Shown: piece after piece, positions 5,935 to 23,970 of the stretch
How positions within the stretch are numbered: position 1 is the stretch's first letter
Layout: every line of letters begins with the position of its first letter
NCBI RefSeq assembly: GCF_014696065.1
Contig: NZ_JACJPL010000026.1
Span: 744,001 to 808,000, forward strand
DNA: 64,000 bases
Direction: 5' to 3'
Source: Leptolyngbya sp. FACHB-261
GTDB lineage: Bacteria; Cyanobacteriota; Cyanobacteriia; FACHB-261
The notes under the pieces: generated by a model
What the model was told of the DNA's origin: nothing
Database searches by the model: none
What the model saw: the letters and a program-made list of their open reading frames with translations, nothing else
Program-made: the position numbers and the translations under genes

Positions 5935-6272
5935 ATGGGTGTTCTCTAACTCTTAGAGGGTCTCAGAGTTAAGACTACGTTGGTCTTAAAGCTTAGTTTT
6001 ATCCGTAATACTTAGGCTATAGGCTTAGGAGTTCAGTAATTACTTACGTATATCTATGTACGTTCTATTAAAGCCTTATAGCAATTCCGTATATCTAAGT
6101 AAGCGGATAAGCCTTTACAAAATCAGCAAAAAAAATACAGCTGAGATGATCGTTAGTCAGAAGAGAGTGGGTAAGTTGTAGAAAGAGCGGTGAGACTTAG
6201 TTCACTAAAAAGAGCTGGGCCTTCCCTTAATAACTACACACTGATTACATAGATAATCGCAAGGAGACCTCG
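5935..6272 (+). promoter_or_regulatory. AT-rich leader/promoter region of the pilin gene
   Basis: About 340 AT-rich bases separate the amt terminator from the pilin start, long enough for a promoter and a 5' leader. The only element I can define is a strong ribosome binding site, AAGGAGACC at 6261-6269, three bases before the ATG at 6273. No -10/-35 pair is clear enough to assign. Confidence 0.5.
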
Positions 6273-6833: not shown

Positions 6834-6857
6834 TCTGGATTGATCATAGGGCTTACT

Positions 6858-6897
6858 AGAGCAGCAAGGTGACAACCACCTTGCTGCTCTGTTTATT
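6858..6897 (+). terminator. Strong intrinsic terminator after the pilin gene
   Basis: AGAGCAGCAAGGTG (6858-6871), loop ACAAC, CACCTTGCTGCTCT (6877-6890), then GTTTATTT. A perfect 14-bp stem, typical for a highly expressed structural gene. Confidence 0.9.
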
Positions 6898-6917
6898 TGT
6901 TAATTGGTATGATAAAG

Positions 6918-6951
6918 CGGTAAGGCAGTAGAGATCGCCTTGCCGTTTTTT
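6918..6951 (+). terminator. Second terminator in tandem
   Basis: CGGTAAGGC (6918-6926) pairs with GCCTTGCCG (6937-6945; one U-G pair) and is followed by six Ts. It insulates the next gene from pilin transcription and starts only 28 bases downstream of the first terminator stem. Confidence 0.85.
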
Positions 6952-6977
6952 GCAGTTGCAAATCTATCTTGTGTTCC

Positions 6978-8939
6978 ATGAACTCCATCGCTTGGCAACA
7001 GCAGGCCACTGAATACCTTTACGAGGGTAAGTACCAGCAAGCTGCCACGCTTTATGAGCAATGCATTGAAGTTGAGCCGGACCAGGTATCTAACTACTGG
7101 CATCTGGGCTTGATGTTGCTACTTCAAGGGCAGGAGGAGGAAGCACAATCTGTGTGGTTTTCAGTATTGCTGGAGGCTGAGCCGGAACAGGTTGAGGTTT
7201 GGTCAACGGAGCTGCTTCAGATTCTGACAGTTGAGGCCGAACGACAGGAGAGCATTGCTGAACCTGAGATTGCTTGGCTGGTTCGTCAGCACATGCAGCA
7301 ACTCGCGCCAGAAGACAGCAACAATCTTTTGCACCTGGTTTTGCTGGCAATCCAGATGGAGACATTGCTTCTAGATGATGCAAGTATTTTGGTGGATACG
7401 AGTCAATCTATTCAATCTGCCCAAGCCAATGGAATTGACCGAAACTTGCTACTTCAAGTCCTAGAACAACTTCTTGATTTCAATTCCTACCATCCTGCTG
7501 TTTTCGAATTTATCGATTCCTGTTTTGCTTATTCTGAGTTGGCAGTTGGGGTTCAAAATACGCTACCTATCAAGACTTATGTTTCCCAGCGATACTACAA
7601 CCTAGGATTAGCCCTGCAAAACCAGCAAAAGCTTGATGAAGCGATTGACCTCTACGAAAGAGCTCTTCAGCTTGATCCCAACAGTGCAGAAACCTATAAC
7701 AATCTAGGTATGATCCTACAGAAACGGGGTCAGTTAGATGAGGCCATTCATCTTTATCAAAAAGGCTTGCAAATAGAGCCTATCTTTACGGGGCTTTATA
7801 ACAATTTGGGTATTGCGCTCCAGGAGCAAGGAAAGCTTGACGAAGCAATGGCTTACTATGAAAAAGTTTTGCAATTTGACTCTAACGATACAAAGACCTA
7901 CCTGAACATTGGCCGGTTACGGAAAGACCAAAAGAGGATTGAAGAAGCTATTAGTAGTTATCAATCTGCCCTTCGGGCTGATTACGAATGCGCTGAGGCC
8001 CATTCCTATCTAGGCATGATGCAACTGTTAATAGGCAACTTTGATCAGGGATGGTCAGAGTATGAATGGCGATGGAAGGATCCCCAATTTTCAACTCCAG
8101 TTCCAAGGTTTGAACAGCCTCTTTGGGATGGGTCTTCGCTCGAAGGCAAAAAAATTCTGTTATTGGCGGAGCAAGGGCTTGGAGATGCCATTCAATTTAT
8201 TCGCTACGCCCCAATGGTTAAGAACTATGGAGGAACAGTCGTTCTTGAGTGCCATCCCCCGCTTGGCAGACTAATGCGCTCTAGTAATGGAGTTGATGAG
8301 GTTTATATTCACTACGAGCCGCTACCAAAATTTGATGTTTATGTGCCGCTGTTGAGTCTACCAAGGATTTTCGGCACGCAACTTGATTCTGTGCCTAATA
8401 CCGTTCCCTATCTCCAACCACCTAACCAGCCGAATTTTGAGGTAAACGTACTGGACGACGCCTCTTCTAACTTGAAGGTGGGCCTAGTGTGGGCCAGTTC
8501 GCCCATACCAGATCCTAAACGGTCTTGTGCGCTGGCGGAGTTTGAGACTTTACTTCAAAGTCCCGGAACAAGCTTTTTTTCTCTTCAGAAGGGGCCTGAA
8601 GTTGAACAAATTAAACCTTTTCAGGAACAGAATTTAATTGTAGATCTGGGCTCGGACTTTCAAGATCTAGCTGATACTGCTTTCGCGATATCCCATTTGG
8701 ATCTGGTTATCTCCGTAGACACCTCTGTTGCTCATTTGGCTGGAGCAATGGGTAAGCCAACCTGGATCTTGTTACCCTTTGTTCCGGACTGGCGCTGGCT
8801 GCTGGAAGGAAATACCAGCCCCTGGTACCCCACCGTGCAACTATTTCGGCAGGCTCAGCCTAACGATTGGCAAAACACGTTAAGGCAAGTGAGTGTAGCC
8901 CTGGCTCACTTCGTTGCTGAGTCTACTAATCTTTCATGA
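6978..8939 (+). CDS. TPR protein with C-terminal GT9/heptosyltransferase-like glycosyltransferase domain
   Basis: 653 residues from ATG 6978. N-terminal region (1-90) is a divergent TPR-like module containing YEQCI and a YWHLGLMLLLQGQEEEA helix pair. Typical TPRs follow at about 205-350 (repeated NLG...G.LDEAI...Y...L). The C-terminal half begins with GWSEYEWRW and continues as a GT-B-like domain with LLLAEQGLGDAIQFIRY, VGLVWASS and ISVDTSVAHLAGAMGKPTW, the latter typical of the donor-binding end of GT9 enzymes. Such TPR-GT9 proteins are common in cyanobacteria; acceptor unknown. The gene converges on and overlaps the next minus-strand gene by 34 bp. Its N-terminal module is clearly related to that of the protein at 18264. 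Confidence 0.85.
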   Translation: MNSIAWQQQATEYLYEGKYQQAATLYEQCIEVEPDQVSNYWHLGLMLLLQGQEEEAQSVWFSVLLEAEPEQVEVWSTELLQILTVEAERQESIAEPEIAWLVRQHMQQLAPEDSNNLLHLVLLAIQMETLLLDDASILVDTSQSIQSAQANGIDRNLLLQVLEQLLDFNSYHPAVFEFIDSCFAYSELAVGVQNTLPIKTYVSQRYYNLGLALQNQQKLDEAIDLYERALQLDPNSAETYNNLGMILQKRGQLDEAIHLYQKGLQIEPIFTGLYNNLGIALQEQGKLDEAMAYYEKVLQFDSNDTKTYLNIGRLRKDQKRIEEAISSYQSALRADYECAEAHSYLGMMQLLIGNFDQGWSEYEWRWKDPQFSTPVPRFEQPLWDGSSLEGKKILLLAEQGLGDAIQFIRYAPMVKNYGGTVVLECHPPLGRLMRSSNGVDEVYIHYEPLPKFDVYVPLLSLPRIFGTQLDSVPNTVPYLQPPNQPNFEVNVLDDASSNLKVGLVWASSPIPDPKRSCALAEFETLLQSPGTSFFSLQKGPEVEQIKPFQEQNLIVDLGSDFQDLADTAFAISHLDLVISVDTSVAHLAGAMGKPTWILLPFVPDWRWLLEGNTSPWYPTVQLFRQAQPNDWQNTLRQVSVALAHFVAESTNLS

Positions 8940-11911
8940 ACAACCTTTTGGTAGAATGCCTCCAACGCTTCTATACAGGTTTTATCTTCATACAAGTTGC
9001 CTAAACGGCTTTGCATCCGTTGTACTACCTCGTGGCGCCAAGTTGGCTCTGTTCCCAAACGCACAGCGATCTCAATATACTCCGACTCGTTCTGGGCGAT
9101 TGTCTCAGTCACCCCCAAGGCCCGCAGGATCCCATAAGTATGCCGGCCCCGCATAAATTCACTAGGACAGGTCACGACAGGGAGGCCGCAAGGAATTGCT
9201 TCCAGGGTGGTGTTACCACCAGACCAACCGAAGGTGTCTAGAAAAACATCGCTCACTAAATTTAGTTCTAGATAGCTGCGCTGGTCTTGCTGGGGCAGAA
9301 CTACACAATATTCTGCACTGTCAAGCCCAGCCGTAGCAAAAGCACGTTTGAGGCGCTGTTTAAACTGCTCTGTTATTCGTACTTTAGGATTGGATAGAAA
9401 GGCAAATTGAGCTTGAGGCAAGCGACGGGCAATCTCAGTAAAAACAAAGTCATATTGAGGTAAATATTTGAAGAGAGATTGACAGGAAAGATAGACAATG
9501 GCGTCGCTACGCAATTTAAAATCAGCACGAGTTTTAGTTAACTCAAGCACGTTTGGTTTTCTGTAGCTAATTCCAATATTACGTAGTCCGACCAATTTCT
9601 CTGAGTAGTGTTCTTGGGCATTCTCAGGCTCCATTAAATCACTAGACAGAAAGTAATCGATCGCTGATGAGCCCGAGGTAATTGGATGCCCCCAAGTCGT
9701 ACATTGTATAGGTGCAAGACGTAAACTTGCCAACTGGGTAGCTGGTGGAAACATGCCAATATCTAGAGAGACTAGAATGTGCAGTTGGTCAGCTAAGATC
9801 TGTTCACAGACAGCCTCTAAATTCTCAGGGATATGGCGGTAGAAATCGCTGTGCAGGCGGAACTGCTGAGTCATCTCGTCTACTTTAGAGCCGAGGTAAT
9901 AACAATAAATCTCGAAATCTTGCTTGGTATGCTCAACCAGCCAACCTAGCATTAGCTTAGCAACTGTGTGCCTGCGGAAATGGCTTGAGACATAGCCAAT
10001 CCGGATTTTTTCTCCCGGCTTTACAACTGGCATGGCTCGTGGTTTAACCCAGTCAGGGTAGCTAGCAGCCATGATTCGCTGCACGAATTGTGCATATTGA
10101 ATTTGCAGCTCTAGGTCGTTATAACCTTGATATTGAAGATAAAAGTTAACGTGTTGATTAACCCCCGCCAGTGCATTCTGTCGTTCTTCAGGTGTTTGTA
10201 AAGAAACTTGTTCAACTAAAGTTTCTAAGCCTTGAACAAACTGTTGACGGTAAGCCTGGATCTCCTCTTGAGAATCGTAGAGAATCGGTAGTGTTAGCTT
10301 TTCTCGAATTTGTAAAACAATATTGTTTGGAAATAGGCGAAGGCCGTTTTCTGCCGCAGCGATAACCTCCTGAGCCCGTCCAAAAACCCCTAATACCCAG
10401 GTGAGCTGAGTATGAAATTCAGCATCATTCGGGTAGAGATTCATAGCCTCTTGAACTGCTTGCAGAGCTTCTTCCTCACGATTAAGTTCCGTTAGGCAGG
10501 TGATCAAAGCACCATAGAAGTTTTCATCGCCGCTCTCTAGTTCTAAGTATTTTCGATATTGCTCAAGAGCTTTCTCATAATCGCCGCAACGATAGAAAGA
10601 GTAACCGAAATTTAGGTAGGCTCGGGCGTAATCTTGCTTGGCCTCATAAGCTAGACCAAGGTTGTACAACACAATAGGAGTTCGGGGTTTAAGCTTTAAT
10701 GTTTGCCAATAAATTGCAATAGCACCCTCTAGATCCCCTCGCCTCATTAGAGTGTTGCCTAGATTGAGATAGCTGCCAAAGTGACTGGGATTGGCCTCGA
10801 TTGCTCGCCTACAAACTGCCTCGGCTTGTTCCAGGCTACCCAACTGAGTCAAAAGATTGCCTAGGTTATTATAGGCATCAATGTAGTTAGGATCGAGAAG
10901 AATTGCTTGCTCGTAAGCTGAAGCAGCTTGAGCTGGCTCATTGATTTTTTCTAGAACTAAACCAAAATTATAGTGAAGAACAGCTCTTGATGAGTCTAGC
11001 GAGCGAGACTTGACTAGTGCTTTTAAGGCATCTCCATATTGCTCCTTCATGTAGTAGAGCATGCCTAAATTCATCCAGGTTAGGGGATCATTTGTTCGAC
11101 GGAGTAGAACTTGTCTGTATCGCTGTTCTGCCTCTGTAAGACGTCCTTGATGATGGAGTGCTAGGGCTGCTACCTGTAAAGTTTCCAGACTGTTTTTCTC
11201 TTGTTCTGCCCGCAACTCACGCAGGCTCCGAATTACAGAGGGTTTATGCATCGCCTGTAACTCGTTCCAACCATAATGATAGGTACTATTAGCGTCCCAA
11301 GCCAACAACTGGATTCCCAATGCAGGCAAGTTAGCAATGGGACGGCACTGAGGCTGAGTGGCGAGAAAATCAGAGCAGGCTTGCTGTACTGTCTCGTCAT
11401 AACTCCCTGCTACCACCAGCACTGCTCTCGCTGCCAAGTGCGGCCTCACTAGGAGCAACCCCAGCAATTGTGACCGGTAGTCCCGCTCTCCCCGGTACAC
11501 ATACAACCCAATCTTGTCCTCGACTTCCGTCTCGCCCAACTCAGCAAAGAAGGCCTCACACTCCTGAGCGCACACCACCACTTGCTCAGACAGACCAAAG
11601 GTATGCAGGTTCTCCTCTAGTTGGGCCAGCCTCTCTGCATCTAAGCTCTGCTCCACCGCATAAGCAAAACGTTCAGGCTGACCGAGTAAAGCGCCTATGA
11701 GCGTCTCTCCCTGCCCGCAGCCGACCTCACAGTACACCTCACCTTCCTCCAGGCACTGCACCGCCTGATTGAGCAGGTGCAGGACAGCAGGGGTGCCTGG
11801 AGCATTCAGTTGGTCCAGCAGGGCTTGAAACTGCTCAGCTTGGGCCTTGGGAGCAGCATCGTCCCAGTCCTCATACTCAAGCAGTGACTCTCGCAATCTC
11901 TCGTACTCCAT
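8906..11911 (-). CDS. Methyltransferase-like/TPR/SPINDLY-type O-GlcNAc transferase-like protein (copy A)
   Basis: About 1001 residues from ATG 11911 (MEYERLR start, as in copy B; a longer in-frame start at 11932 is less likely). Order: class I methyltransferase-like domain (about 50-190; EVYCEVGCGQGETL), several TPRs (about 240-540; LHYNFGLVLEK, AYNNLGNLL), and a C-terminal GT41 domain (about 625-985) with RIGYVSSHFRRH, ...TTWGHPITSGSS, CQSLFKYLPQYD (family nucleotide-binding Lys) and WSGGNTTLEAIPCGLPVV. GT41 enzymes move GlcNAc or another sugar to Ser/Thr of proteins. Last of three tandem paralogues, read 18030 to 8906. In the methyltransferase-like domain the usual YDG.H motif is YRGERDY, so methyl transfer is doubtful. 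Confidence 0.88.
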   Translation of the reverse strand: MEYERLRESLLEYEDWDDAAPKAQAEQFQALLDQLNAPGTPAVLHLLNQAVQCLEEGEVYCEVGCGQGETLIGALLGQPERFAYAVEQSLDAERLAQLEENLHTFGLSEQVVVCAQECEAFFAELGETEVEDKIGLYVYRGERDYRSQLLGLLLVRPHLAARAVLVVAGSYDETVQQACSDFLATQPQCRPIANLPALGIQLLAWDANSTYHYGWNELQAMHKPSVIRSLRELRAEQEKNSLETLQVAALALHHQGRLTEAEQRYRQVLLRRTNDPLTWMNLGMLYYMKEQYGDALKALVKSRSLDSSRAVLHYNFGLVLEKINEPAQAASAYEQAILLDPNYIDAYNNLGNLLTQLGSLEQAEAVCRRAIEANPSHFGSYLNLGNTLMRRGDLEGAIAIYWQTLKLKPRTPIVLYNLGLAYEAKQDYARAYLNFGYSFYRCGDYEKALEQYRKYLELESGDENFYGALITCLTELNREEEALQAVQEAMNLYPNDAEFHTQLTWVLGVFGRAQEVIAAAENGLRLFPNNIVLQIREKLTLPILYDSQEEIQAYRQQFVQGLETLVEQVSLQTPEERQNALAGVNQHVNFYLQYQGYNDLELQIQYAQFVQRIMAASYPDWVKPRAMPVVKPGEKIRIGYVSSHFRRHTVAKLMLGWLVEHTKQDFEIYCYYLGSKVDEMTQQFRLHSDFYRHIPENLEAVCEQILADQLHILVSLDIGMFPPATQLASLRLAPIQCTTWGHPITSGSSAIDYFLSSDLMEPENAQEHYSEKLVGLRNIGISYRKPNVLELTKTRADFKLRSDAIVYLSCQSLFKYLPQYDFVFTEIARRLPQAQFAFLSNPKVRITEQFKQRLKRAFATAGLDSAEYCVVLPQQDQRSYLELNLVSDVFLDTFGWSGGNTTLEAIPCGLPVVTCPSEFMRGRHTYGILRALGVTETIAQNESEYIEIAVRLGTEPTWRHEVVQRMQSRLGNLYEDKTCIEALEAFYQKVVHERLVDSATK

Positions 11912-11917
11912 CCCTAG
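11349..11917 (-). repeat. Near-identical repeat, copy A (5' end of the gene)
   Basis: This ~570-base block encoding the first ~188 residues is nearly identical at nucleotide level to 14417-14997. By eye there are about a dozen substitutions and one 12-base indel (extra NDLG in copy B). Similarity falls off sharply downstream, where the two genes share only protein-level resemblance. Confidence 0.85.
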
Positions 11918-11967
11918 CCCCCAATTCCTCAACCCAGTTTAATGAACGTCAGCTAATCAATGGTGAA

Positions 11968-14900
11968 TCAGCTTGAAGAATGCATTTGACTCACAACGGT
12001 TTGATAAAAATTTTCAAGTTCTAAGAGACAGGTTCTGTCATCGTATAGTCTATCGTGGTGTTCTGAAATTCGCTGTGAAATTGCTTGTCGCCAGTCCCGA
12101 TTCTGCCCGAGTCTCACAGCAATTTCAATATATTCAGTTTCGGTCTGAGCAATAGTTTCAGTCACACCTAACGTTTTTAGAATGGCATAGGAATGGCGAC
12201 CGCGCATGAATTGTCCAGGGTAGGTTACTACAGGCAAATTACAAGCAATTGCTTCTAGAGTTGTGTTGCCGCCTGACCAAGCTAAAGTATCTAGATAGAT
12301 ATCAGAGATCTGATGCAAGTTCAGGTAGTCATGCTGTTTCTGGCGTGGCAGGACAATGCAGTAATCTTCGCTATCTAAGTCAATGGCAGCAAAAGCTCTA
12401 CGCAGACGTTCCCGAAAGCGATCAATCGCACCGACGTTAGGAGGAGATAAGAATACAAACTGAGCCTGAGGAACGCGTTGGGCAATCTCAGGAAAGATGA
12501 AGTCATACTGAGGCAAATACTTAAACAGAGATTGGCAAGACAAGTAAACAACAGCATTGTCTCGCAGGCCAAATTCCGAGCGACTCTTGGTTGAGTCAGG
12601 CATGACCGGTTTAGCATAGGCAACACTAATATTAGGCAGCCGAATCAACTTTTCTGAGTAGTGCTCTTGAGCGTTCTCAGGTTCCATCAAGTCGCTAGAT
12701 AGAAAATAATCCAGAGTAGGTAAGCCAGAAGTAATTGGGTGGCCCCAAGTGACGCATTGAATTGGAGCCAGTCTTAGCCCTGCTAGCTGGGTCATGAGGG
12801 GTGACATGCCAAGATCTGTAAAAACTAGAATATGAGGCTGATCAACCAGAATTTGCTGACAGATTGCCTCTAAATCATGGGGAATATGATGAAAAACTTC
12901 GCTGTAAAGTTGAAATTGTTGAGTCACCTGATCAACATTGCTGCCAACGTGATAGCAATGTATCTCAAAAGCCTGTTTATTGCTGTTTTTCAGCCAGCCC
13001 AATATTAGGGCCGCAACTGCATGGTTAGAGAAGAAGGCGGAAACATAGCCAATGCGAATTTTGCCTAAAGCTGTAAGAGGAGACATGGCCAGCGGTTTCA
13101 CCCATTGAGGGTAGTTCGCAGCCATAATTTGATGAACAAATTGTCCATACTGAGTTTGCAATACTAAGTCATTACAGCCTTGGTATTGCAGATAGAAGTT
13201 AGTATGGGAACCAATACTAGCCAAAGCATTGCTTTGAGTCTCAGCAGCGGTTAGGTCAAGCTGACTTACTAGCTCCTGCAAACCCTGTGTAAACCTCTGG
13301 CGGTAGAAGTTGATCTCCTCAGGGGTTTCGTAAAGCACAGGCAGCATTAGTTTCTGCTGAAGCTTGAAAAATAAATCCCTGGGAAATACGAGGGCTGCTT
13401 CAGTAGCAGCAGCAATAGCCTCTTGAGTTCGGCCAGACCGATGCAGAACTGAAATCAGTGAGCGTCGCAGACCATTTTCAGCAGGATGAAGACGAATACC
13501 CTCATGAAGAATATTTAAGGCTTCTTCTTCTCGATCTAGTTGCAAGAAGCAGTCACCTAGGGCAGAATATAGACTCGCTGTACCTACTGTAATGCTAAGA
13601 AGTTTCTGATATTGAGCAATCGCCTGATTGTAATCTCTCTCGCTGTAAAAAGCCCAACCAGAGTAGAGATGGGCTTGAGCTAGGTCTTGTTTAGCCTTGA
13701 AAGCCAAACTCAAATTATGCAACACTTCCGAGCTGTTGGGCGAAATGTTTAAAGCTTTTCTATAATTTTCAATTGCTGAATTAGTATCGCCTTTGTTTAA
13801 TAAAACATTGCCCAAGTTGAGATAGCTGCCGAAGTGATCTGGTTTGACAGCAATTGCTTGATTGTATACAAGCTCAGCCTGTTGGCTCTGCCCCACCTGC
13901 AATAGAAGATTACCTAAATTGTTGTAAGCCTCAATCTTTTGAGGATCGAGATTAATAGCTGTTTGATAAGCTGTGATGGCTTGAGAAAATTGGTCCAGCT
14001 TCTCCAAAACTAAGCCGAAACTGTAGTGGAGTACAGCTTGGGAGCTATCCAATTCCAGGGATTTCAATAAGGCATTGAGAGCTTCTGGGTATCGCTCAGC
14101 CATGTAGTAGAGCATGCCTAGATTTTGCCAGATTTCTGCATCTTCGCCTTTGCGCAAGAGCACTTGCTGATACTGTTGCTCCGCTTCTATAAACCGTCTC
14201 TGGTGATGCAGTGCTACTGCTGACTTGCGCAGCTCATCCAATAATTTCTTCTCTTGCTGAGCTTGAAGATTGTGGATCGCCTGAATCACTACTGGTCGGT
14301 GATGTTGTTGTGCCTGAGCTTGAATATCGCTACTATTTTTGGGCTCCCTATTTACATCCCAAACTAGCAATTGAAGACCGTGAGAGGTAGGAGGTAAGTT
14401 ATCTAGAAGATAACAGTGAGGCTGGGTGGCGAGAAAATCAGAGCAGGCTTGCTGTACTGTCTCGTCATAACTCCCTGCTACTACCAGCACTGCTCTCGCT
14501 GCCAAGTGCGGCCTCACCAGGAGCAACCCCAGCAACTGTGACCGGTAGTCCCGCTCTCCCCGGTACACATACAACCCAATCTTGTCCTCGACTTCCGTCT
14601 CGCCCAACTCAGCAAAGAAGGCCTCACACTCCTGAGCGCACACCACCACTTGCTCAGACAGACCAAAGGTATGCAGGTTCTCCTCTAGTTGGGCCAGCCT
14701 CTCTGCATCCAAGCTCTGCTCCACCGCATAAGCAAAACGTTCAGGCTGACCGAGTAAAGCGCCCATGAGCGTCTCTCCCTGCCCGCAGCCGACCTCACAG
14801 TACACCTCACCTTCCTCCAGGCACTGCACCGCCTGATTGAGCAGGTGCAGGACAGCGGGGGAGCCTAGATCATTCCCTGGAGCATTCAGTTGGTCCAGCA

Positions 14901-14991
14901 GGGCTTGAAACTGCTCAGCTTGGGCCTTGGAAGCAGCATCGTCCCAGTCCTCATACTCAAGCAGTGACTCTCGCAACCTCTCGTACTCCAT
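11968..14991 (-). CDS. Methyltransferase-like/TPR/SPINDLY-type O-GlcNAc transferase-like protein (copy B)
   Basis: 1007 residues, same architecture as copy A: methyltransferase-like domain (about 50-195), TPRs (about 250-550), GT41 domain (about 640-1000) with KIRIGYVSAFFSNH, CVTWGHPITSGL, CQSLFKYLPQYDF and WSGGNTTLEAIACNLPVV. Start ATG 14991 lies 9 bases after the stop of copy C, so the two are translationally close and probably co-transcribed. A 56-base gap separates it from copy A. The motif YRGERDY replaces YDGAHDY, as in copy A. Predicted cytosolic: no signal peptide. Substrate unknown; pilin, S-layer or other surface proteins are candidates by context only. Confidence 0.88.
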   Translation of the reverse strand: MEYERLRESLLEYEDWDDAASKAQAEQFQALLDQLNAPGNDLGSPAVLHLLNQAVQCLEEGEVYCEVGCGQGETLMGALLGQPERFAYAVEQSLDAERLAQLEENLHTFGLSEQVVVCAQECEAFFAELGETEVEDKIGLYVYRGERDYRSQLLGLLLVRPHLAARAVLVVAGSYDETVQQACSDFLATQPHCYLLDNLPPTSHGLQLLVWDVNREPKNSSDIQAQAQQHHRPVVIQAIHNLQAQQEKKLLDELRKSAVALHHQRRFIEAEQQYQQVLLRKGEDAEIWQNLGMLYYMAERYPEALNALLKSLELDSSQAVLHYSFGLVLEKLDQFSQAITAYQTAINLDPQKIEAYNNLGNLLLQVGQSQQAELVYNQAIAVKPDHFGSYLNLGNVLLNKGDTNSAIENYRKALNISPNSSEVLHNLSLAFKAKQDLAQAHLYSGWAFYSERDYNQAIAQYQKLLSITVGTASLYSALGDCFLQLDREEEALNILHEGIRLHPAENGLRRSLISVLHRSGRTQEAIAAATEAALVFPRDLFFKLQQKLMLPVLYETPEEINFYRQRFTQGLQELVSQLDLTAAETQSNALASIGSHTNFYLQYQGCNDLVLQTQYGQFVHQIMAANYPQWVKPLAMSPLTALGKIRIGYVSAFFSNHAVAALILGWLKNSNKQAFEIHCYHVGSNVDQVTQQFQLYSEVFHHIPHDLEAICQQILVDQPHILVFTDLGMSPLMTQLAGLRLAPIQCVTWGHPITSGLPTLDYFLSSDLMEPENAQEHYSEKLIRLPNISVAYAKPVMPDSTKSRSEFGLRDNAVVYLSCQSLFKYLPQYDFIFPEIAQRVPQAQFVFLSPPNVGAIDRFRERLRRAFAAIDLDSEDYCIVLPRQKQHDYLNLHQISDIYLDTLAWSGGNTTLEAIACNLPVVTYPGQFMRGRHSYAILKTLGVTETIAQTETEYIEIAVRLGQNRDWRQAISQRISEHHDRLYDDRTCLLELENFYQTVVSQMHSSS

Positions 14992-14997
14992 CCCTAA
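14417..14997 (-). repeat. Near-identical repeat, copy B (5' end of the gene)
   Basis: Partner of 11349-11917. Identity includes the few bases before the start codon (CCATCCCTA on the plus strand), then ends, so the exchanged tract covers the 5' coding segment and its start. Confidence 0.85.
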
Positions 14998-15000
14998 ACC

Positions 15001-18000
15001 TCACAATGCCTGCTCTACCCTGCGCTCAGTACTGACTTGGCGAACAACAGCTCGGTAAAAATCTTCCAGAGCAGCAACACAAACTTTATCTTCATACAGC
15101 CTGTCATGAGAATTGTTGATGCGTTGCCTAAGCTCACAGCGCCATTTTTCTTCCAGCGCCAATTTGACTGCAATTTCGATGTATTCTGATTCGTCTTTGG
15201 CAACAGTCTCAGTTATTCCCAACATCTTCAGAACGGCGAAGGAGTGACGACCTCGCATAAATTGACCAGGGCAAGTCACAATGGGCAAGCCACAGGCAAC
15301 CGCTTCCATTGCCGTATTAAAACCAGACCAGCTGAAGGTATCCAGGAAAATATCAGCGACTAAATTGAGTCTCAAGAAATCATGCCAATCATTCTGTTGG
15401 GGTAGAATGACGCAGTAGTCTTCACTCTTAAGGCTAATGTTGGCAAAGGCTCGCTGAAGTCGTCGCTGAAACTGCTGAGTCACACGAGCTTTTGGAGAAC
15501 CCAAAAATGCAAATTGGGCTTGGGGAACGCGGCGAGCGATCTCAGCAAAGACAAAATCATATTGTGGCAAATATTTAAAAAGAGATTGACAGGATAGATA
15601 TAGAACTGTGTCATCACGTAAACCGAAATCCGATCGTTTTTTAGTTTGTCTCGGTAGAGATGGTTTAGGGTAGGCAACACTAACGTTGGGCAGGGTGATT
15701 AATCGCTCTGAGTAATGGTCTTGAGCATTATCAGGCTCCATCAAATCACTGGACAGGAAGTAATCAACGGCTGATGAACCAGACGTAATTGGATGCCCCC
15801 AAGTCGTACATTGGATGGGAGCTAGTCTCAAGGCTGACATTTGCACCATTTGCGGAGACATGCCAATGTCAGCAAACACGAGAATATCTAGTTGATCTGC
15901 AACAATCTGTTCACAGGCGGACTTCAGGTCATCTGGAATGTGCTGAAAATGGTCACTGTGAAGGCGGAACTGCTGGGTCATTGCGTCTGCCTTACGACCC
16001 ACATGATAAGTGAAAACCTCAAAGTCTTGCTTATTGGCATGGCTCAGCCAACCGATTGTAGTTCTTGCAACTGAATGTTGCGAGAAAAAGGGTGAAATGT
16101 AGCCAATCCGAATCCTGCCGTGCTTCAAAGAAGGCAGAGTTCGTGATTGAGCCCAATCGGGATACTGGGCCATCATCACTTGCTGAACAAAATTCCCGTA
16201 CAAGCGCTGCAACTCTAAGTCATCACAGCCTTGATATTGCAGATAGAAGTTATGATGGCTACCTAAAAATTCGAGCGCATTCTCCCTGTCTTCAGAGTTA
16301 TCTAAGGTTGTTTCGCTCAATCTCTTTAAGCCTTCAGTGAAGCGTTGACGATACACCAAAACTTCTCCTGGCGTATCATTTAGAACTGGAAGGATAAGCT
16401 GTTGTTGCAATTCCAGAAATTGGTCTTTTGGCAAAAGCCTTGAGGCATCGACTGCCGCTTCGATAGCTTCTTGAGTGCGGCCAGCTTCCTGCAAAGTCAC
16501 CAATAGATTGGTGTGCAGAGAGCGCTCTTTTGGGTAGAGGCGAATACCCTCTCTTAAAATATCTAGTGCTTCTTCTTCCCGACCCAAACCTACCAAACAA
16601 GCACACAAGGCTATGTAAAGTTTGGCATCCTTTTCGCCCAGTTCTAGCAGTTTTTGATATTGACAGATTGCCTCTACATAGTTGCCTTGGCAGAAGAAAT
16701 TGTATGCGGAATGTCGGCAAGCCTGGACAGGATTCTCTTTCGCTGCGAACGCGACTTGCAGGTTGTGCCGAGCATCTTCTTTCTGCGGTTCAAGCTCTAG
16801 GGCTTTTTCATAGGTAGCAATGGCAGCATCATAATTCCCTCGGCTCAGCAGCAAGTTGCCCAGATTCAAGTGGCTGCCATAATGCTCTGGATTGGCTAGA
16901 ACAGCTTGCTGGTAAACAATCTCCGCCTGCTCTGCTCTACCAACTTTGAGGAACAAATTACCTAAGTTGTTGTAAGCGTCAACTAGCCTAGGCGCGAGAC
17001 CAATGGCCTGCCGATAGGCCTCAGTGGCCTGCAAAAATTCTCCTAGCTTTTCTAAGACTAAGCCAAAATTGTAGTGCAATAAAGCGTTCTTTGGTTCTAG
17101 CGATAAAGACTTGAATAAAGAAGTAAGAGCCTCTTGATAGCGCTCAGTTGTATAGTAAAGACTACCTAAATTCAACCAGGCGTCGGCGTGATTATTGCAA
17201 CGGCTTAGGATTTGCCTGTAAGTCTGTTCAGCTTCTACCCAATGGCTCTGCTCATGCAGCTTGATCGCCATCCTATGAAGATCATCAATTGTTTGTTGTT
17301 CCTGCTCAGCTCGTAAATCTATCAGTGAGCGAATCAGCGCTGGCCTGTGATTTTTCTGGAGCTCTAGCCACTTGTAGTGATGCTTTTGGTCTTTATCCCA
17401 ACTCAGGACTAGGAAATTATTCCACCCTGACAATTCTGGCAAAATTTTGCAATGAGAATGAGCTGCAACAAAATCCCAGCCCACCTGTTGTACTGATTCC
17501 CAATGACCACCACCTAAAGCAATCAGACTTTGATCCGCCAGAAAAGGCTCAACCAAAAGTAGACCTAGGAGTTGAGAGCGATAGTCGTGAGCACCATCAT
17601 AGAAATACACGCCAATTTTCTCTTCCAGACTGATGCTGTGCAAGTCGGCAAAAAACTCCTCAAAGTCCTGTTGGCACAACAAAACTTGAGCTTCTAGATC
17701 AAAGGTAGCAAGGTTGTCAGTCAGCTTATCCAGGTTCTCATCAAGAGCATCAAATTGAGAGAAATTGTCTACTGCGTAACCCATGCAATTGGGATGATTG
17801 AGTAAGGCACCAATGAGAGAGGCTCCCTGCAAGCAACCAATCTCACAGTAGATTTCGCCAGGTTCCAGACAACCTACCGCTGAGTTCAGCAACTGTAGAG
17901 CATTGACACTAGTCGTGCCTGAAACCTGAGTTAGTAGTTGCTGAAAGACCTCAGATTTGGGATGAATGGACGTTTGTTTCCAGTTGTTGTATAAACCCGG

Positions 18001-18030
18001 CAATTTCTCAATAAAACTTTGGAGATCCAT
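15001..18030 (-). CDS. Methyltransferase/TPR/SPINDLY-type O-GlcNAc transferase-like protein (copy C)
   Basis: 1009 residues from ATG 18030 (MDLQSFIEK, aligning with the starts of copies A and B; an upstream ATG at 18072 would add 14 residues). Methyltransferase domain about 50-200 keeps GEIYCEIGCLQGAS and the canonical VYFYDGAHDYRSQ, so this copy is the best candidate for a working Methyltransf_24-like domain. TPRs about 255-545, then GT41 (about 645-1000): RIRIGYISPFFSQH, TTWGHPITSGSS, CQSLFKYLPQYDF. The donor loop reads WSGFNTAMEA where the other copies have WSGGNTTLEA. First gene of the three-gene minus-strand operon; its promoter faces the gene at 18264 across a 233-bp divergent region. 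Confidence 0.88.
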   Translation of the reverse strand: MDLQSFIEKLPGLYNNWKQTSIHPKSEVFQQLLTQVSGTTSVNALQLLNSAVGCLEPGEIYCEIGCLQGASLIGALLNHPNCMGYAVDNFSQFDALDENLDKLTDNLATFDLEAQVLLCQQDFEEFFADLHSISLEEKIGVYFYDGAHDYRSQLLGLLLVEPFLADQSLIALGGGHWESVQQVGWDFVAAHSHCKILPELSGWNNFLVLSWDKDQKHHYKWLELQKNHRPALIRSLIDLRAEQEQQTIDDLHRMAIKLHEQSHWVEAEQTYRQILSRCNNHADAWLNLGSLYYTTERYQEALTSLFKSLSLEPKNALLHYNFGLVLEKLGEFLQATEAYRQAIGLAPRLVDAYNNLGNLFLKVGRAEQAEIVYQQAVLANPEHYGSHLNLGNLLLSRGNYDAAIATYEKALELEPQKEDARHNLQVAFAAKENPVQACRHSAYNFFCQGNYVEAICQYQKLLELGEKDAKLYIALCACLVGLGREEEALDILREGIRLYPKERSLHTNLLVTLQEAGRTQEAIEAAVDASRLLPKDQFLELQQQLILPVLNDTPGEVLVYRQRFTEGLKRLSETTLDNSEDRENALEFLGSHHNFYLQYQGCDDLELQRLYGNFVQQVMMAQYPDWAQSRTLPSLKHGRIRIGYISPFFSQHSVARTTIGWLSHANKQDFEVFTYHVGRKADAMTQQFRLHSDHFQHIPDDLKSACEQIVADQLDILVFADIGMSPQMVQMSALRLAPIQCTTWGHPITSGSSAVDYFLSSDLMEPDNAQDHYSERLITLPNVSVAYPKPSLPRQTKKRSDFGLRDDTVLYLSCQSLFKYLPQYDFVFAEIARRVPQAQFAFLGSPKARVTQQFQRRLQRAFANISLKSEDYCVILPQQNDWHDFLRLNLVADIFLDTFSWSGFNTAMEAVACGLPIVTCPGQFMRGRHSFAVLKMLGITETVAKDESEYIEIAVKLALEEKWRCELRQRINNSHDRLYEDKVCVAALEDFYRAVVRQVSTERRVEQAL

Positions 18031-18263
18031 AACCACATCTTGCTGTCGAGCGTAGCTTTCTACTAGCCACATTGGTCTGGCTAGATCCCATCACACTGGA
18101 CAGGTGGACCGGAGGTCTGGGGGTCAGGCTACTCTATCACTGCTCCCACCTAGGATACTGAATGCTAGACTGCTTACCCTGGGCAGACTAAGCATTAGGT
18201 GAGGGAAGCCTTGCCCAGGGAAACCTATCTACGCCTCATGCTCACGCCGGCTCTGAACGAATC
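18031..18263. promoter_or_regulatory. Divergent promoter region with 9-bp inverted repeat
   Basis: This 233-bp spacer must hold the promoters of both the GT41 operon (minus) and the TPR-GH68 gene (plus). It carries a perfect inverted repeat CCCTGGGCA (18177-18185) / TGCCCAGGG (18212-18220) with a 26-base spacer. That could be an operator or a 5'-leader hairpin of the plus-strand gene. No T-run follows. Confidence 0.4.
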
Positions 18264-20453
18264 ATGAACTTCTTTGAAGTCCAAAAAGCGGCACAGACCT
18301 GCTTTATGCAGGCGAACTACCCGGATGCCATTAGTCTCTACGAGCAGTGCATCGCAATCGACGAGGTGGTCATCTCCAGTTATTGGTATCTTGGGCTCTC
18401 GTTTCTACTTCAAAACCAAGAACTGGAAGCTGAAACTGTTTGGTTTTCTGCTATCGCTCAAGCTCAAGCGGATCAAATTGATGCCTTAACTGAAGACTTA
18501 AGTCATGTCCTTAAGGCAGAAATAGCCAGACAAGTTCAGGCCGACAGCTTAGCGTCAGCCCAGAAGATCATTGACAAAATTGTAGAGTTCAATCCCGAAG
18601 ATTTTGAAACGCAGTGGTATCTTGGCAATCTTTTTCTAGCCCAACGAGAATTCCTGCCGGCGATTGAGCATTTTCAGAAGTGTTTGGAACTCAAATCTGA
18701 CTCTCCAGAAGCCTATTTCAATTTAGGCTATTGCTTCAAAGAGCTGGGAGACTTGGACAAAGCAATTTCAGCCTTCAAAACTGTGATCGAGCTTAAGCCC
18801 GAGCTGGCAGAAGCTTATCTGAATTTGGGCTATACCCTTAGGGATCGGGGCAACCTTGATTCAGCAATTGCAACTTTAGAGCAGGCCATTGCGATCAAGC
18901 CTGATTTTGCTGAGGCCTATTATAGTTTAGGGTTGGTCCACCGAGGGCTGAGTAAGCTTGACCAGGCAGCGGCCAGCTTAGAGCAGGCGATTGCCATTAG
19001 ACCAAGTTTTATTGAAGCACATTATCATTTGGGTTTCATTTGCCGGGACAAAGGCGATCTCGATACTGCAATTACTCATTTCGAAAAGGCAATAGAATTC
19101 CAGCCAGAATTACCTGAGCTTCATTGCAATCTAGGCCTTGTCCTAAGAGAAAGAGGCCACTTTGGTAGAGCAATTCTGAGCCTGGAAAAGGCAATTGCCT
19201 TAAATCCTGAATTGCCTGAAGCGCACTGCAACTTAGGTTTTACTTTTAGAGATATTAATGACCCAAGCCAGTCTATCCTCAGCCTTCGAAGAGCTATTGA
19301 GCTACGGCCCAACTTTCCTGAAGCCCACTGCGTTTTAGGTTTGAGCCTACGAGATCAAGGGGCACTCGACAAGGCGATCCATTATCTGCAGCACGCCATT
19401 ACACTCCAACCCAATCTTCAAGAAGCAGTTTGTGGGCTCAGGGAGATTATCAGCGCCCAGAAAGCAGGCTACTCGTTGAAACTAGAGCAGGGCTATGGAG
19501 TTTGGGACCCCTGGCTATTGAAGGATGGGGATGTCTACCGGCTCTTTTATTTGACTGCTAACAGGCAAGTTTTTCCATTCTGGAGTGTTGGTGAAATTGG
19601 CTCTGCTGTCTCAACCGATTTAGAAACCTGGCAGTACTTAGGAACTGCCCTGGAACCGAACAGCGAGTTTCCATGGCAAAGTGGCAGAATGCTAGCCGGT
19701 AGCGCTTACAAAGAGGATGGAACTTACTATCTCTTTTATTCGGCGGCTCCCCCCAGACCAGATACCCTGCGTGAGGGCATTGGTTTGGCAGTCTCAACTG
19801 ATGCCATACATTGGCATCGCTCCTCTGATCAACTGATTATGCCAGATTCTCGTTTCTACATCTCGACTTGGCACCCACTCATTCGGGAGGGAATGCATAC
19901 TCCTTGGCGGGATCCCTATGTCATTCAAGATCCTAATACTGGCAAATATTACTTGTTCATGAGTGCTGCTGGCAGAGGCGACTCCAAATTTAACGGTTGC
20001 ATCGGCTTGGCGGTGGCCGATAAAATCGACGGTCCCTATGAAGTTTTACCACCCGCAGCCTACCCTGTGATTGATCAGCTTGGCGAGGGAATTTACTATG
20101 AAATGGAACGGCCTCAGGTAATCTACAACCACGGTTTGTACTATCTCTTTTTCTCGGTTGGGCCAACCTTTATTAACCCGAAGTGGATTGACAAGGTAGG
20201 CATTGATCAGATTACCGGCTCTTCTTTGCACTGCTATGTCTCCGAGCAAATTACAGGGCCTTTTCAACCCATTGCTCCAAAACCAATTGTGAAGGGCAGT
20301 GACAAAACTGGCCTCTATGGCACCAATTTCATCCAAGGACCAGACGGCGAATTCTTTGCCTACGGTTGTTACTTCAAGTCCTTCACTCTAGAAGTTTCCC
20401 CGCGCTTTCCCGTTCGCTGGCAACCCGATTCCATTGAGATTTTGGTCAGCTAA
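18264..20453 (+). CDS. TPR protein fused to a GH68-like (clan GH-J) five-bladed propeller domain
   Basis: 729 residues. Residues 1-95 form the same N-terminal module as the protein at 6978 (YEQCI, SSYWYLGLSFLLQNQELEAE). Seven or eight well-formed TPRs follow (about 105-395; AEAYLNLGYTLRDRGNLDSA type). From about 405 a propeller domain carries VWDPWLL (Asp415), TPWRDPYV (Asp550) and YYEMERPQV (Glu615). These match the nucleophile, transition-state Asp (RDP) and acid/base Glu (ERP) of GH68/GH32/GH43 enzymes; ERPQ is most like Gram-negative GH68 levansucrases. No signal peptide is present, so it appears cytosolic, odd for a fructan enzyme. Activity could be hydrolysis, transglycosylation or sugar binding; only the fold and triad are supported. 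Confidence 0.8.
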   Translation: MNFFEVQKAAQTCFMQANYPDAISLYEQCIAIDEVVISSYWYLGLSFLLQNQELEAETVWFSAIAQAQADQIDALTEDLSHVLKAEIARQVQADSLASAQKIIDKIVEFNPEDFETQWYLGNLFLAQREFLPAIEHFQKCLELKSDSPEAYFNLGYCFKELGDLDKAISAFKTVIELKPELAEAYLNLGYTLRDRGNLDSAIATLEQAIAIKPDFAEAYYSLGLVHRGLSKLDQAAASLEQAIAIRPSFIEAHYHLGFICRDKGDLDTAITHFEKAIEFQPELPELHCNLGLVLRERGHFGRAILSLEKAIALNPELPEAHCNLGFTFRDINDPSQSILSLRRAIELRPNFPEAHCVLGLSLRDQGALDKAIHYLQHAITLQPNLQEAVCGLREIISAQKAGYSLKLEQGYGVWDPWLLKDGDVYRLFYLTANRQVFPFWSVGEIGSAVSTDLETWQYLGTALEPNSEFPWQSGRMLAGSAYKEDGTYYLFYSAAPPRPDTLREGIGLAVSTDAIHWHRSSDQLIMPDSRFYISTWHPLIREGMHTPWRDPYVIQDPNTGKYYLFMSAAGRGDSKFNGCIGLAVADKIDGPYEVLPPAAYPVIDQLGEGIYYEMERPQVIYNHGLYYLFFSVGPTFINPKWIDKVGIDQITGSSLHCYVSEQITGPFQPIAPKPIVKGSDKTGLYGTNFIQGPDGEFFAYGCYFKSFTLEVSPRFPVRWQPDSIEILVS

Positions 20454-20529: not shown

Positions 20530-21297
20530 ATGAAACGACTTTCCCTGTTGCTGAATTTGGTGGTTATTGGTATCACCACAGTGGCTGTTGGTGGCCTACA
20601 AGCTGCACGCTTGAGCCAGACCCTTAGAACAACCGATGAAAATCCCCAGCAGGCAGTTGAGCAGGAAAAAATCCGCTTGGCAGCTTTGCATAAAGTGCCG
20701 AGCATGGGATTTGACAACCTGATCGCAGACTGGGCATTTTTAGGCTTCTTGCAATACTTCGGTGACGAGCAAGCCCGCCAAGCGACGGGTTATGAGCTGA
20801 GCGGAGACTACTTCGACATCATCATCGGACGCGATCCGCAATTTCTGCTGGCTTATTTGTTTGTCTCGACTAGTACATCGATGTATGCAGCGCAGCCTGC
20901 CCGGTCGGTTGCGATTCTGAGCCATGGCCTAGAATCGCTCTCACCCGAGGCAACTCCAGAAGCCTATCTAGTCTGGCGTTACAAAGCCATTGACCAACTG
21001 CTGTTTCTGGGTGATCGGCAGGGGGGAGCGGCATCCTTTGCGCAGGCGGCTAATTGGGCTGAGCGCTTCGCCCATGATCCAACTGCTGCTGCAGTCTCGC
21101 GCCAGACTGCTCAATTTCTGCAAGGGGGTCGTGACTTGCGTGCTGCCCAAATGAGTGCTTGGACTATGGTGCTCACGCAGGCAGTGGATGAGCGGACTGC
21201 TGCGATTGCACGACAGCAAATTCTAGACTTGGGTGGCCAGATCAAGCAGAAACCAGATGGTTCGTGGGGGGTGAGTTTGCCGCCCCGTCCTCAATGA
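20530..21297 (+). CDS. Conserved membrane-anchored protein of unknown function
   Basis: 255 residues. An N-terminal hydrophobic segment (LLLNLVVIGITTVAVGGLQAA) looks like a signal anchor, followed by an Ala/Gln-rich helical domain with the striking stretch VPSMGFDNLIADWAFLGFLQ and TPR-like helices (RSVAILSHGLESL, RQGGAASFAQAANWAERF). It ends 15 bp from the convergent O-antigen ligase gene. I cannot assign a family. The location suggests a role in the envelope or polysaccharide assembly (inference). Confidence 0.65.
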   Translation: MKRLSLLLNLVVIGITTVAVGGLQAARLSQTLRTTDENPQQAVEQEKIRLAALHKVPSMGFDNLIADWAFLGFLQYFGDEQARQATGYELSGDYFDIIIGRDPQFLLAYLFVSTSTSMYAAQPARSVAILSHGLESLSPEATPEAYLVWRYKAIDQLLFLGDRQGGAASFAQAANWAERFAHDPTAAAVSRQTAQFLQGGRDLRAAQMSAWTMVLTQAVDERTAAIARQQILDLGGQIKQKPDGSWGVSLPPRPQ

Positions 21298-21312: not shown

Positions 21313-23970
21313 TTAAACAGGGGCAGGTCTGCCGATACCTAGCAACTCAGCTTGAGCCGCAACGACAAAGCGGGCATAGGCTGGAAAATCCTGAAAGGCT
21401 TGTGAGGTTGGAAACAACTGGAGCTGCTCAACCAGAACACAGCTATTGAAGTAGAGCGGTAGCGGCACATCGGTCATCCCAGTAGTGTTGCGGTAGCCGA
21501 AATAGCCGATATCCCCCAGACCGCGTGCCGAGCGCGTATCGATTGAGCGCAACCATAGCCGCAAATCTCTGATTTGCAGTGAGGCCAAGACCTGCTCGCG
21601 ATTGTCTTCTGGATAGGCTGCTAGCTCCTGACCATATCGCTTTGGATTACTCCAGGCGCGTAATAGCTTCGCCCCCAATTCCAACTCTGGAGGTACCTGC
21701 TCCAGCACCCGTAGGGCCTCTGCCGTCTTGCCGGCGTCGAGCAGTAGCAGGGCATGGGCGGTCGGGTTTAGCCGGTTGAGGTCAATCTCTCCTAAGGGGC
21801 GCTGGTTGAACCAACGCAACAGCACCCAGTCCTGGTAAATGGGGTTATAAGTAGCTGCTGCGGCAACTTGCCCACTGCTGGGCGCAGTTGCGTTACGGGC
21901 TGGGGGGAGCCCTGCTAGAAACTGCTCATGTAGATTCAAGCTCTGCTCTAGCACCGCTGGGTAGAGGGCTGCCTGAGCCGATGAAGACCAGACTGGCGCA
22001 GTCAGAACACCGGGATTAACGAAGCTTTCCAAGGCATAGGCAGCCACGGCTCGTTCTCGCTGCCCGGATGCTAGTTCTGCCTGGCCCAGGTGGTAGTAGG
22101 TTAGCGGCGTGAGCGGTTGCAATTGAACCGCACGTGTAAGGCTCTCGACTGCTCGCTTGGGATTTTGGTCGAGAATCAAGCGCCCTAGGTACTCATTAAA
22201 GAAAGCATCGTTCGGTGCTGTCTGCACGGCATAGCCCATGTACTGAATGGCAATGCGGTTGAGGTCTTGCTTTAGCGCATCATCGTTGGTGATGCCATTG
22301 CGCAGTAGTTGCAGATAGGCAGCTAACTGAAAGTCGTAGTAGGGATCCCAGGGAACGAGCTGTCCGGCCTTTGACCACTGGCTGTAGAAGCCCTGCAAGT
22401 CATTGCGCCGAAAGTTCGCGACTGCCTGCTGCCCCAGATACATTGCCTGTGTAACCGGCAACCAGACCAGCAGCATCACTAGCAACCCACCGATCACGAC
22501 CAAATTGACCAGGCGTTGCCGAGGTTGGGGTATGAATCTGCCGATAGCAGAATCAGCTGGTAAATACTGGCGTCCCAGACTTGCCAACATGACGGTCAGA
22601 GCTACCAGCAACGAGCTGATCGGGATATTCTCCAACTGAAAATCAGTGAGGCTGCTGACGATGTAGATTAACAGTCCTCCGCCAATGCCGTAGAGCTGCC
22701 AAAGGTCCCTTTGAGCCCGTTCTAAGTTCGCTATCGGGCCCTGGTGCAGTCTTGCCCAAAGCCGCCCCCAGAGGCGCGCGAGGAGGACTATCCACAATAG
22801 ATAGACCCCAAACCCCAGCAAGCCCAGTTCAGCTAGTAGGTGCACGGGGGTGCAGTGCATCTGCTGCACGTTGCTTGCTGTCTGGCCTGCCTCAATGGGG
22901 TGGTAAAGGTCGTAGAGGCGAAAGGTGTTGCCAGGGCCAATGCCAGTGACAGGCGAGGTTTGCCACAGTCGCAAGCCAGTCTGGATGGTGACGAAGCGGA
23001 ACACAATATTGCCATCTAACCCGCCAGAGAGCGGCGCAGACACCATGCGCTGTGCACGGGGACTGCTGAGAGCAAAGCCAATGGCACCCACTAGCATCAA
23101 GCCACTGAAGCCGATGACACGCCAGCGATGCTTGCCACTATGGCTCAGAATGCTCACGAGGGCCGCAGCTACAGCCAAGGCTAGCAGCCCCAAGATGCCG
23201 CCCCGCGAGCCAGTCACGATCAGGGCAGTGCCAACCAGTCCACCTCCCGAAAGCCAAGCCCAACGCCAGTGATCGCGACGTTGCACACCCAGGGCTAATA
23301 CCACGGCCAGCACTAAACCCAGATAGCCAGCAGTCAGATTGTGGTGGCCTAGGGGCATGGGATTGACCAGAGCATCGCCATCCTGCAACGTCTCTCGAAT
23401 CGGCCACCACAAAATCAAGCTCTCAAGACTGGTCAAGATGCCTAAACCACCCATTAGCTCTAGCAAACGCTGACGTTGGCTACTTGCCCCTGCTCCTGTC
23501 TGTGCGCCTATGTCTATTTCTGTCCCCGTCTGTGCTCCTGTCTCTGAACTACTAAACCACTGGTTGAGACTGTAGAGCATGGCCGCATAGCCACAAGCCA
23601 TGACCACGTACCACACTGCCGGTTGCACATAGGATGCGAACAGCGCCGAGAGGACTAGACTGAGTAGCCCTAAGCCCGCTACCCAATCCAAGCCATTGCC
23701 CAATCCGCGCAAGCTCTGCTGAGCCCGGAGTTGCAGCAGCCCCCACAGACCGAAGCTCAAAAAGCCGAGCTGCCAAACTGCAACCCAGGGCCAGCGCACC
23801 ATTTGGCCGTAGCTGTTAGGCAGTACAGTAAAGAGCACTACCATCAGCAATCCGAAGCCTGCTGCTATTCGCCCCACAGCTGTCCAGGCCACGCCCTGAC
23901 TGGAGTGAGCTGTAGATTCCACTTGCCTAGAGCTGCCGGTAGGCTCTAGTTCAGAAGGATCAGGGTTCAT
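21313..23970 (-). CDS. O-antigen ligase/Wzy-like membrane protein with C-terminal TPRs
   Basis: 885 residues. The first ~480 are polytopic (about 11-12 membrane helices) and contain Wzy_C-type signatures: LIVTGSRGGILGLLAL and a large periplasmic loop starting ITGIGPGNTFRLYDLYHP with a conserved QMHCTPVHLLAELGLLG. These mark O-antigen ligases, oligosaccharyl-transferring PglL/ComP types and polymerases. The C-terminal ~400 residues are soluble and include TPR pairs (FFNEYLGRLILDQNPKRAV, TYYHLGQAELASGQRERAV). Since pilin-modifying O-oligosaccharyltransferases belong to this superfamily, it is a candidate for en bloc glycan transfer, but polymer ligase is equally possible. Confidence 0.82.
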   Translation of the reverse strand: MNPDPSELEPTGSSRQVESTAHSSQGVAWTAVGRIAAGFGLLMVVLFTVLPNSYGQMVRWPWVAVWQLGFLSFGLWGLLQLRAQQSLRGLGNGLDWVAGLGLLSLVLSALFASYVQPAVWYVVMACGYAAMLYSLNQWFSSSETGAQTGTEIDIGAQTGAGASSQRQRLLELMGGLGILTSLESLILWWPIRETLQDGDALVNPMPLGHHNLTAGYLGLVLAVVLALGVQRRDHWRWAWLSGGGLVGTALIVTGSRGGILGLLALAVAAALVSILSHSGKHRWRVIGFSGLMLVGAIGFALSSPRAQRMVSAPLSGGLDGNIVFRFVTIQTGLRLWQTSPVTGIGPGNTFRLYDLYHPIEAGQTASNVQQMHCTPVHLLAELGLLGFGVYLLWIVLLARLWGRLWARLHQGPIANLERAQRDLWQLYGIGGGLLIYIVSSLTDFQLENIPISSLLVALTVMLASLGRQYLPADSAIGRFIPQPRQRLVNLVVIGGLLVMLLVWLPVTQAMYLGQQAVANFRRNDLQGFYSQWSKAGQLVPWDPYYDFQLAAYLQLLRNGITNDDALKQDLNRIAIQYMGYAVQTAPNDAFFNEYLGRLILDQNPKRAVESLTRAVQLQPLTPLTYYHLGQAELASGQRERAVAAYALESFVNPGVLTAPVWSSSAQAALYPAVLEQSLNLHEQFLAGLPPARNATAPSSGQVAAAATYNPIYQDWVLLRWFNQRPLGEIDLNRLNPTAHALLLLDAGKTAEALRVLEQVPPELELGAKLLRAWSNPKRYGQELAAYPEDNREQVLASLQIRDLRLWLRSIDTRSARGLGDIGYFGYRNTTGMTDVPLPLYFNSCVLVEQLQLFPTSQAFQDFPAYARFVVAAQAELLGIGRPAPV

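Follow-up and report, generated by a model that had tools for sequence, protein, structure and literature searches.

What would a glycosidase-type propeller do at the end of an OGT-like TPR array, inside a cyanobacterial cell and next to the genes of TPR-GT41 proteins? The question is raised by one gene in a 64,000-nucleotide stretch of the Leptolyngbya sp. FACHB-261 genome (hereafter the window), which the first-pass annotation had described as a cytosolic TPR array fused to a GH68-like propeller with an intact catalytic triad. The features on which our answer draws are listed in Table 1.

Architecture and scaffold

The open reading frame is exactly as first delimited, and a TPR array followed by a GH-J-type propeller that looks active by sequence can be recognized in it. 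Pfam returned nine TPR_11 stretches on the 729-aa protein, placing the TPRs at residues ~2-399 and a GH43/GH68/GH32-superfamily propeller at residues 415-696. The roughly eight TPRs first counted correspond to the eight canonical repeats, which are preceded by the degenerate helical module. There is no PF13844 match, i.e. no GT41 catalytic domain, in this protein; its C-terminus is the end of blade 5, and the GH32-type beta-sandwich domain after the propeller is absent. Literature searches gave no report of this long-TPR propeller architecture.

Table 1. Features of the TPR-propeller gene and its neighbours (window positions)
Feature	Position	Strand	Remarks
Type IV pilin-like protein (Pilin_GH)	6273-6833	+	possible client, by position alone
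Module-TPR protein with marginal GT9 domain	6969-8939	+	the genome's only other N-terminal module copy
TPR-GT41 protein, third of tandem three	8906-11932	-	
TPR-GT41 protein, second of tandem three	11968-14991	-	
Methyltransferase-TPR-GT41 protein	15001-18072	-	divergent neighbour, 191 bp gap; Methyltransf_24 match at N-terminus
TPR-propeller protein	18264-20453	+	729 aa, ATG start
N-terminal helical module, residues 1-113	18264-18602	+	three degenerate TPR-like pairs; cyanobacterial TPR-GT41 module
Eight canonical TPRs, residues 114-381	18603-19406	+	nearest natural solved structures: human OGT, plant SPINDLY
Five-bladed propeller, residues 411-729	19494-20450	+	GH43/GH68/GH32 superfamily
Asp415 (W414-D415-P-W417)	19506-19508	+	nucleophile (retaining) or general base (inverting) position
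Asp550 (W548-R549-D550-P551)	19911-19913	+	transition-state / pKa Asp position
Glu615 (E615-R616-P617-Q618)	20106-20108	+	acid(/base) position

The lack of a signal peptide was also borne out. Hydropathy over 19 residues peaks at 1.29, with neither a hydrophobic segment nor a signal peptide, and there is no alternative start codon upstream within the open frame, so a hidden signal peptide is impossible there. Going by this location signal, sequence and model point to a protein that is predicted to be cytosolic. The missing signal peptide, remarked on in the first-pass annotation, is not confined to the window protein: every relative examined is also without one.

Residues 1-125 were matched in 185 of the 390 genomes of the class. 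The 30 best module loci encode 25 TPR-GT41 proteins, three TPR-methyltransferases and two TPR-propeller proteins, and the module recurs, as first proposed, in the TPR-GT9 protein of the window (positions 6984-7322, 34% identity, E 4.9e-18). Since it carries methyltransferase heads as well, the module is a reusable scaffold. At three loci (L071, L074 and L081), an OGT-type N-terminal module is joined to class I methyltransferase heads (Methyltransf_24 or Methyltransf_11).

Among natural solved structures, human OGT is the best match to the TPRs (1.2e-63), with SPINDLY at ~2e-47; both are outscored by a designed consensus TPR. In the full-length model (pTM 0.47), the TPRs reach pLDDT >90 and are confident over residues 130-380, and the best fold match in the PDB is the OGT TPR superhelix 1w3b (3.7e-19), with SPINDLY among the top ten. 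Half of the eight repeats (those starting at 148, 182, 284 and 318) have Asn at the ladder position, the ladder being an established feature of OGT. Because the matches of the module, the TPR sequence and the superhelix are all of the OGT/GT41 type, the protein is, as far as sequence and predicted fold tell, an OGT-type scaffold that bears another kind of catalytic head.

The propeller, its catalytic residues and its relatives

The first-pass annotation had placed the propeller closest to bacterial GH68, and the family models support this only in part. Scored alone in Pfam, the domain is above the GH68 cut-off (PF02435; 41 bits, range 37-41.0, cut-off 27), but GH43 scores best (PF04616; 62 bits, range 57.2-62.0, cut-off 32.2); GH32N reaches 37 bits (range 33-37, cut-off 22), and GH130 (PF04041) is negligible at 11 bits (11.2 against a cut-off of 26). 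When the profile of the clade is compared with solved structures, levansucrases come first (7.4e-26). The structure models used an alignment of two sequences, the window protein and L001, the one distant relative found by a genome-wide pattern scan. The domain model, of moderate confidence (pTM 0.75, mean pLDDT 63), has five blades, and Foldseek returned GH43 4qqs as its top match (E 7e-12), together with GH117, GH32 and levansucrase (TM 0.74 by query length).

Asp415, Asp550 and Glu615 were found exactly at the positions and in the motifs first named, and the model places them in blades 1, 3 and 4, respectively, in each case on the first strand. Each is the same residue in all aligned relatives that cover its column (two rows are incomplete). 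Because the triad and the W-D-x-W, R-D-P and E-R-P-Q motifs are intact across relatives at 44-60% identity, purifying selection on catalysis is likely. The same three carboxylates are present in inverting GH43 enzymes, and for this reason the triad alone does not prove a retaining mechanism of the GH68 type.

The pocket departs from GH68. Position 477 is Leu (L477-A478-G479) where the W-(S/A)-G motif of GH68 has Trp, and the levansucrase Arg/His after blade 4 are missing from the window propeller in both the clade alignment and the comparison with solved-structure profiles. From established levansucrase structures, we take the Trp to belong to the fructosyl/sucrose pocket and the Arg/His to contact the glucosyl unit. 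Because these residues are replaced or missing, we file the domain, on its sequence, as a clade inside the GH-J/GH-F propellers rather than under GH68; a clean GH68 identity was also rejected on the grounds that GH43 is the best Pfam model and that the protein is unsecreted. The same differences agree with the early guess that the substrate would be something other than sucrose.

Of the 390 class genomes, 34 have a propeller match, with 44-60% identity in about 20 of these. With few exceptions, the matching proteins stand alone, are 360-400 aa long and lack a signal peptide. Long TPR-propeller fusions were found in two of the 390, the window genome and G126, and the two domains pair in the tree (60% identity, support 95/91); the G126 fusion lies at the end of a 3.5-kb contig, where its neighbours are uninformative. 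A third TPR-bearing relative (L058, in G063) has a shorter TPR stretch. The orders of G126, G052 and G033 yielded no further TPR fusions, the viral contigs searched held no relatives of the propeller, and the window genome is the sole genome of its order in the comparison set. A further relative, L057:6488-7651 (G339), is split by a stop codon within a glycosyltransferase-rich cluster and is either a pseudogene or an assembly error.

The other clades of the tree track gene context, namely polysaccharide clusters, sugar ABC transporters (L032, L033, L035 and L056) and mycosporine clusters. The polysaccharide clade (L040, L042 and L043) holds the nearest stand-alone relatives, at 52-54% identity to the window domain; its clusters contain GT4, Wzx-like, Wzc-like and Wzy genes, and the relative itself adjoins a Wzy_C gene. 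At position 477, the Leu of the window protein recurs in this clade, whereas the mycosporine clade has Cys, Ser or Leu and the transporter clade Phe. At position 613, the window protein shares Glu with the polysaccharide clade and G063; both the mycosporine and the transporter clade have His there. Because L477 and E613 both match, the predicted pocket of the window protein is most like that of the polysaccharide clade.

Gene neighbourhood and mycosporine clusters

The three tandem TPR-GT41 proteins, of 1,007-1,023 aa each, are encoded by the only GT41 genes in the 6.9-Mb genome, all at 8906-18072 of the window, and the N-terminal module is found genome-wide in just two genes, those at 18264-20453 and 6969-8939. 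All GT41 genes and both module copies therefore lie between 6.9 and 20.5 kb of the window. The GT9 match of the second module protein is slight (22.4 bits, cut-off 22). A low-GC block of ~14 kb (6.3-20.5 kb; GC 0.44-0.49 versus ~0.52 around it) coincides with these glycosylation genes and takes in the pilin-like gene as well; the block (6001-20000) was possibly acquired. Downstream of the TPR-propeller gene, 76 bp away on the same strand, is a 255-aa open reading frame without a Pfam match (20530-21297), and a PMT_2-type mannosyltransferase-like membrane protein is encoded at 40964-42517. An Rfam scan of the window gave no matches.

The mycosporine clade of the propeller tree comprises 13 proteins. 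Among the 390 class genomes, 68 have mysC, and in 11 of these 68 a propeller gene of the mycosporine clade lies within ~5 kb of it (G299, G206, G033, G052, G126, G290, G250, G169, G264, G287 and G262). Clusters of mysA, mysB and mysC with a cytosolic stand-alone propeller are seen at L041, L044, L045, L046, L047, L051, L053, L054, L055, L059 and L036, and a PF00891 O-methyltransferase often accompanies the propeller gene. At some loci, a second propeller gene adjoins the first (L041:9144-10133, L046:3980-5008, L050:2601-3635, L051:9405-10433 and L053:10093-11172); its product has ~30% identity to the window domain, an E-V-P-Q acid motif and the Trp of W-T-G. Our literature searches gave no description of the propeller clade in mycosporine clusters and no reported activity for the clade. 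Unspecified ‘glycosyl hydrolases’ have been mentioned near such clusters (PMC11888242), and sugar tailoring of mycosporines has been shown only for the GT4-type enzyme MysG1 (PMC11378024). The mycosporine-cluster propeller gene is a good candidate for such tailoring, and the clade as a whole might account for sugar chemistry that is so far unexplained in exopolysaccharide clusters and in those for mycosporine sunscreens. Mycosporine tailoring was rejected as a role for the window protein, as mysC is absent from the window genome.

Possible roles and comparison with known systems

The reading that we favour, tentatively, is that an OGT-type client-binding scaffold has had its GT41 domain swapped for a GH-J/GH-F (trans)glycosidase that would trim or remodel the glycans of cytosolic clients held by the TPRs; activity, client, sugar and the choice between hydrolysis and transfer are what we infer here. 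The N-terminal module and the TPR superhelix would hold the client, a polypeptide or glycoprotein, as OGT does, and the TPR groove would present the client glycan to the propeller pocket. The propeller, in the place of GT41, would then cleave off a sugar from that glycan, with or without transferring it, via D415, D550 and E615, so that products of the neighbouring TPR-GT41 and TPR-GT9 enzymes might be trimmed or remodelled, in opposition or as editing. We prefer a role on protein glycans mainly because of the linkage to the GT41 and module genes, and linkage in one genome is weak evidence. Against this reading, TPRs are general protein binders and, to our knowledge, GH-J/GH-F enzymes act mostly on furanosides, xylosides and similar substrates, not on the GlcNAc or fucose typical of OGT and SPINDLY. 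Its extension to a full cytosolic write-and-edit system, with a TPR-GT41 writer, a TPR-GH-J/F editor and a common client-recognition scaffold, is doubtful; we know of no GH-J/F propeller fold that acts on intracellular protein glycans.

The glycan could be a polysaccharide intermediate instead, because the nearest stand-alone relatives, in polysaccharide clusters and beside Wzy_C, share L477 and E613, a combination common only to that clade and the short-TPR protein. The propeller would then process an exopolysaccharide intermediate, either cytosolic or lipid-linked, with the TPRs serving only to dock it to the assembly machinery; the window has its own Wzy_C ligase gene (21313-23970). We nevertheless consider this somewhat unlikely, as the scaffold is OGT-type and no known polysaccharide docking module, the island lacks adjoining Wzx/Wzc-type genes, and the Wzy_C gene is not part of the low-GC block. 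The occurrence of stand-alone relatives in biosynthetic clusters (mycosporine and polysaccharide) would suit a net transferase better than a hydrolase, and the propeller may thus add sugar, with a glycoside or a sugar nucleotide as donor, as in levansucrase or in GT108, the precedent for a five-bladed propeller glycosyltransferase/phosphorylase (PMC8476585, PMC8950772). A weak match to GINT1_N, below threshold at 18.8 bits against a cut-off of 27, points the same way, GINT1_N being the N-terminal, propeller-like part of a transferase from plants. Set against this are the negligible GH130 score, a full triad that suits glycoside cleavage and the lack of any nucleotide-binding signature, which make a transferase with a hydrolase fold an unlikely option.

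A cytosolic fructosyltransferase or invertase that uses sucrose, as the GH68 reading would have it, is very unlikely. It would fit the levansucrase profile match, the presence in the genome of sucrose-synthesis-like and GH100 invertase genes, and the sugar ABC transporters that accompany some relatives and annotated ‘levansucrases’, but not Leu477, the absent glucosyl-subsite Arg/His or the higher GH43 score, and three GH100 invertases already cover sucrose. Least probable of all is that the propeller is inactive and has a lectin or structural function: non-catalytic partners are, as is generally known, attached to many TPR proteins, and confidence in the domain model is moderate, but the three carboxylates and their motifs are invariant across the clade.

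Returning to the favoured protein-glycan reading, a window protein that edits GT41 products would provide a testable editor enzyme for the cyanobacterial OGT-like proteins, which are widespread and whose function is poorly known; in Synechococcus elongatus, an OGT homologue has been linked to phosphorus retention and cell aggregation (PMC4683255). The OGT client-binding scaffold would then be a reusable module with GT41, GT9-like, methyltransferase or glycosidase heads.

Several known systems resemble parts of this protein. GH68 levansucrases and inulosucrases (clan GH-J) share the five-bladed propeller and the W-D-x-W, R-D-P and E-R-P motifs and give the best solved-structure profile, whereas the window protein has no signal peptide, has the sucrose-pocket Trp and the glucosyl Arg/His replaced, is fused to TPRs and scores higher as GH43. 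GH43 (clan GH-F) gives the best Pfam match and the top Foldseek match, but E-R-P-Q and W-D-x-W are GH68-like, and enzymes of GH43 normally either are secreted or have imported plant glycans as substrates. GT108 mannosyltransferases/phosphorylases likewise combine a five-bladed propeller with glycosyl transfer in a non-secreted setting; they are, however, GH130-like, lack the GH-J triad and have no significant sequence match to the window domain. The cyanobacterial TPR-GT41 proteins (OGT/SPINDLY-like) have the same N-terminal module and an OGT-type superhelix, with the GT41 domain replaced by the propeller in the window protein. Complete cytosolic protein-glycan cycling is known in few bacteria, one of them Thermobaculum terrenum, whose OGT/OGA pair (PMC4683255) likewise sets a cytosolic TPR-GT41 writer beside a cytosolic hydrolase as candidate eraser; that eraser is a GH84 enzyme without an OGT-type scaffold, whereas the candidate editor described here is an unrelated propeller carried on the scaffold itself.
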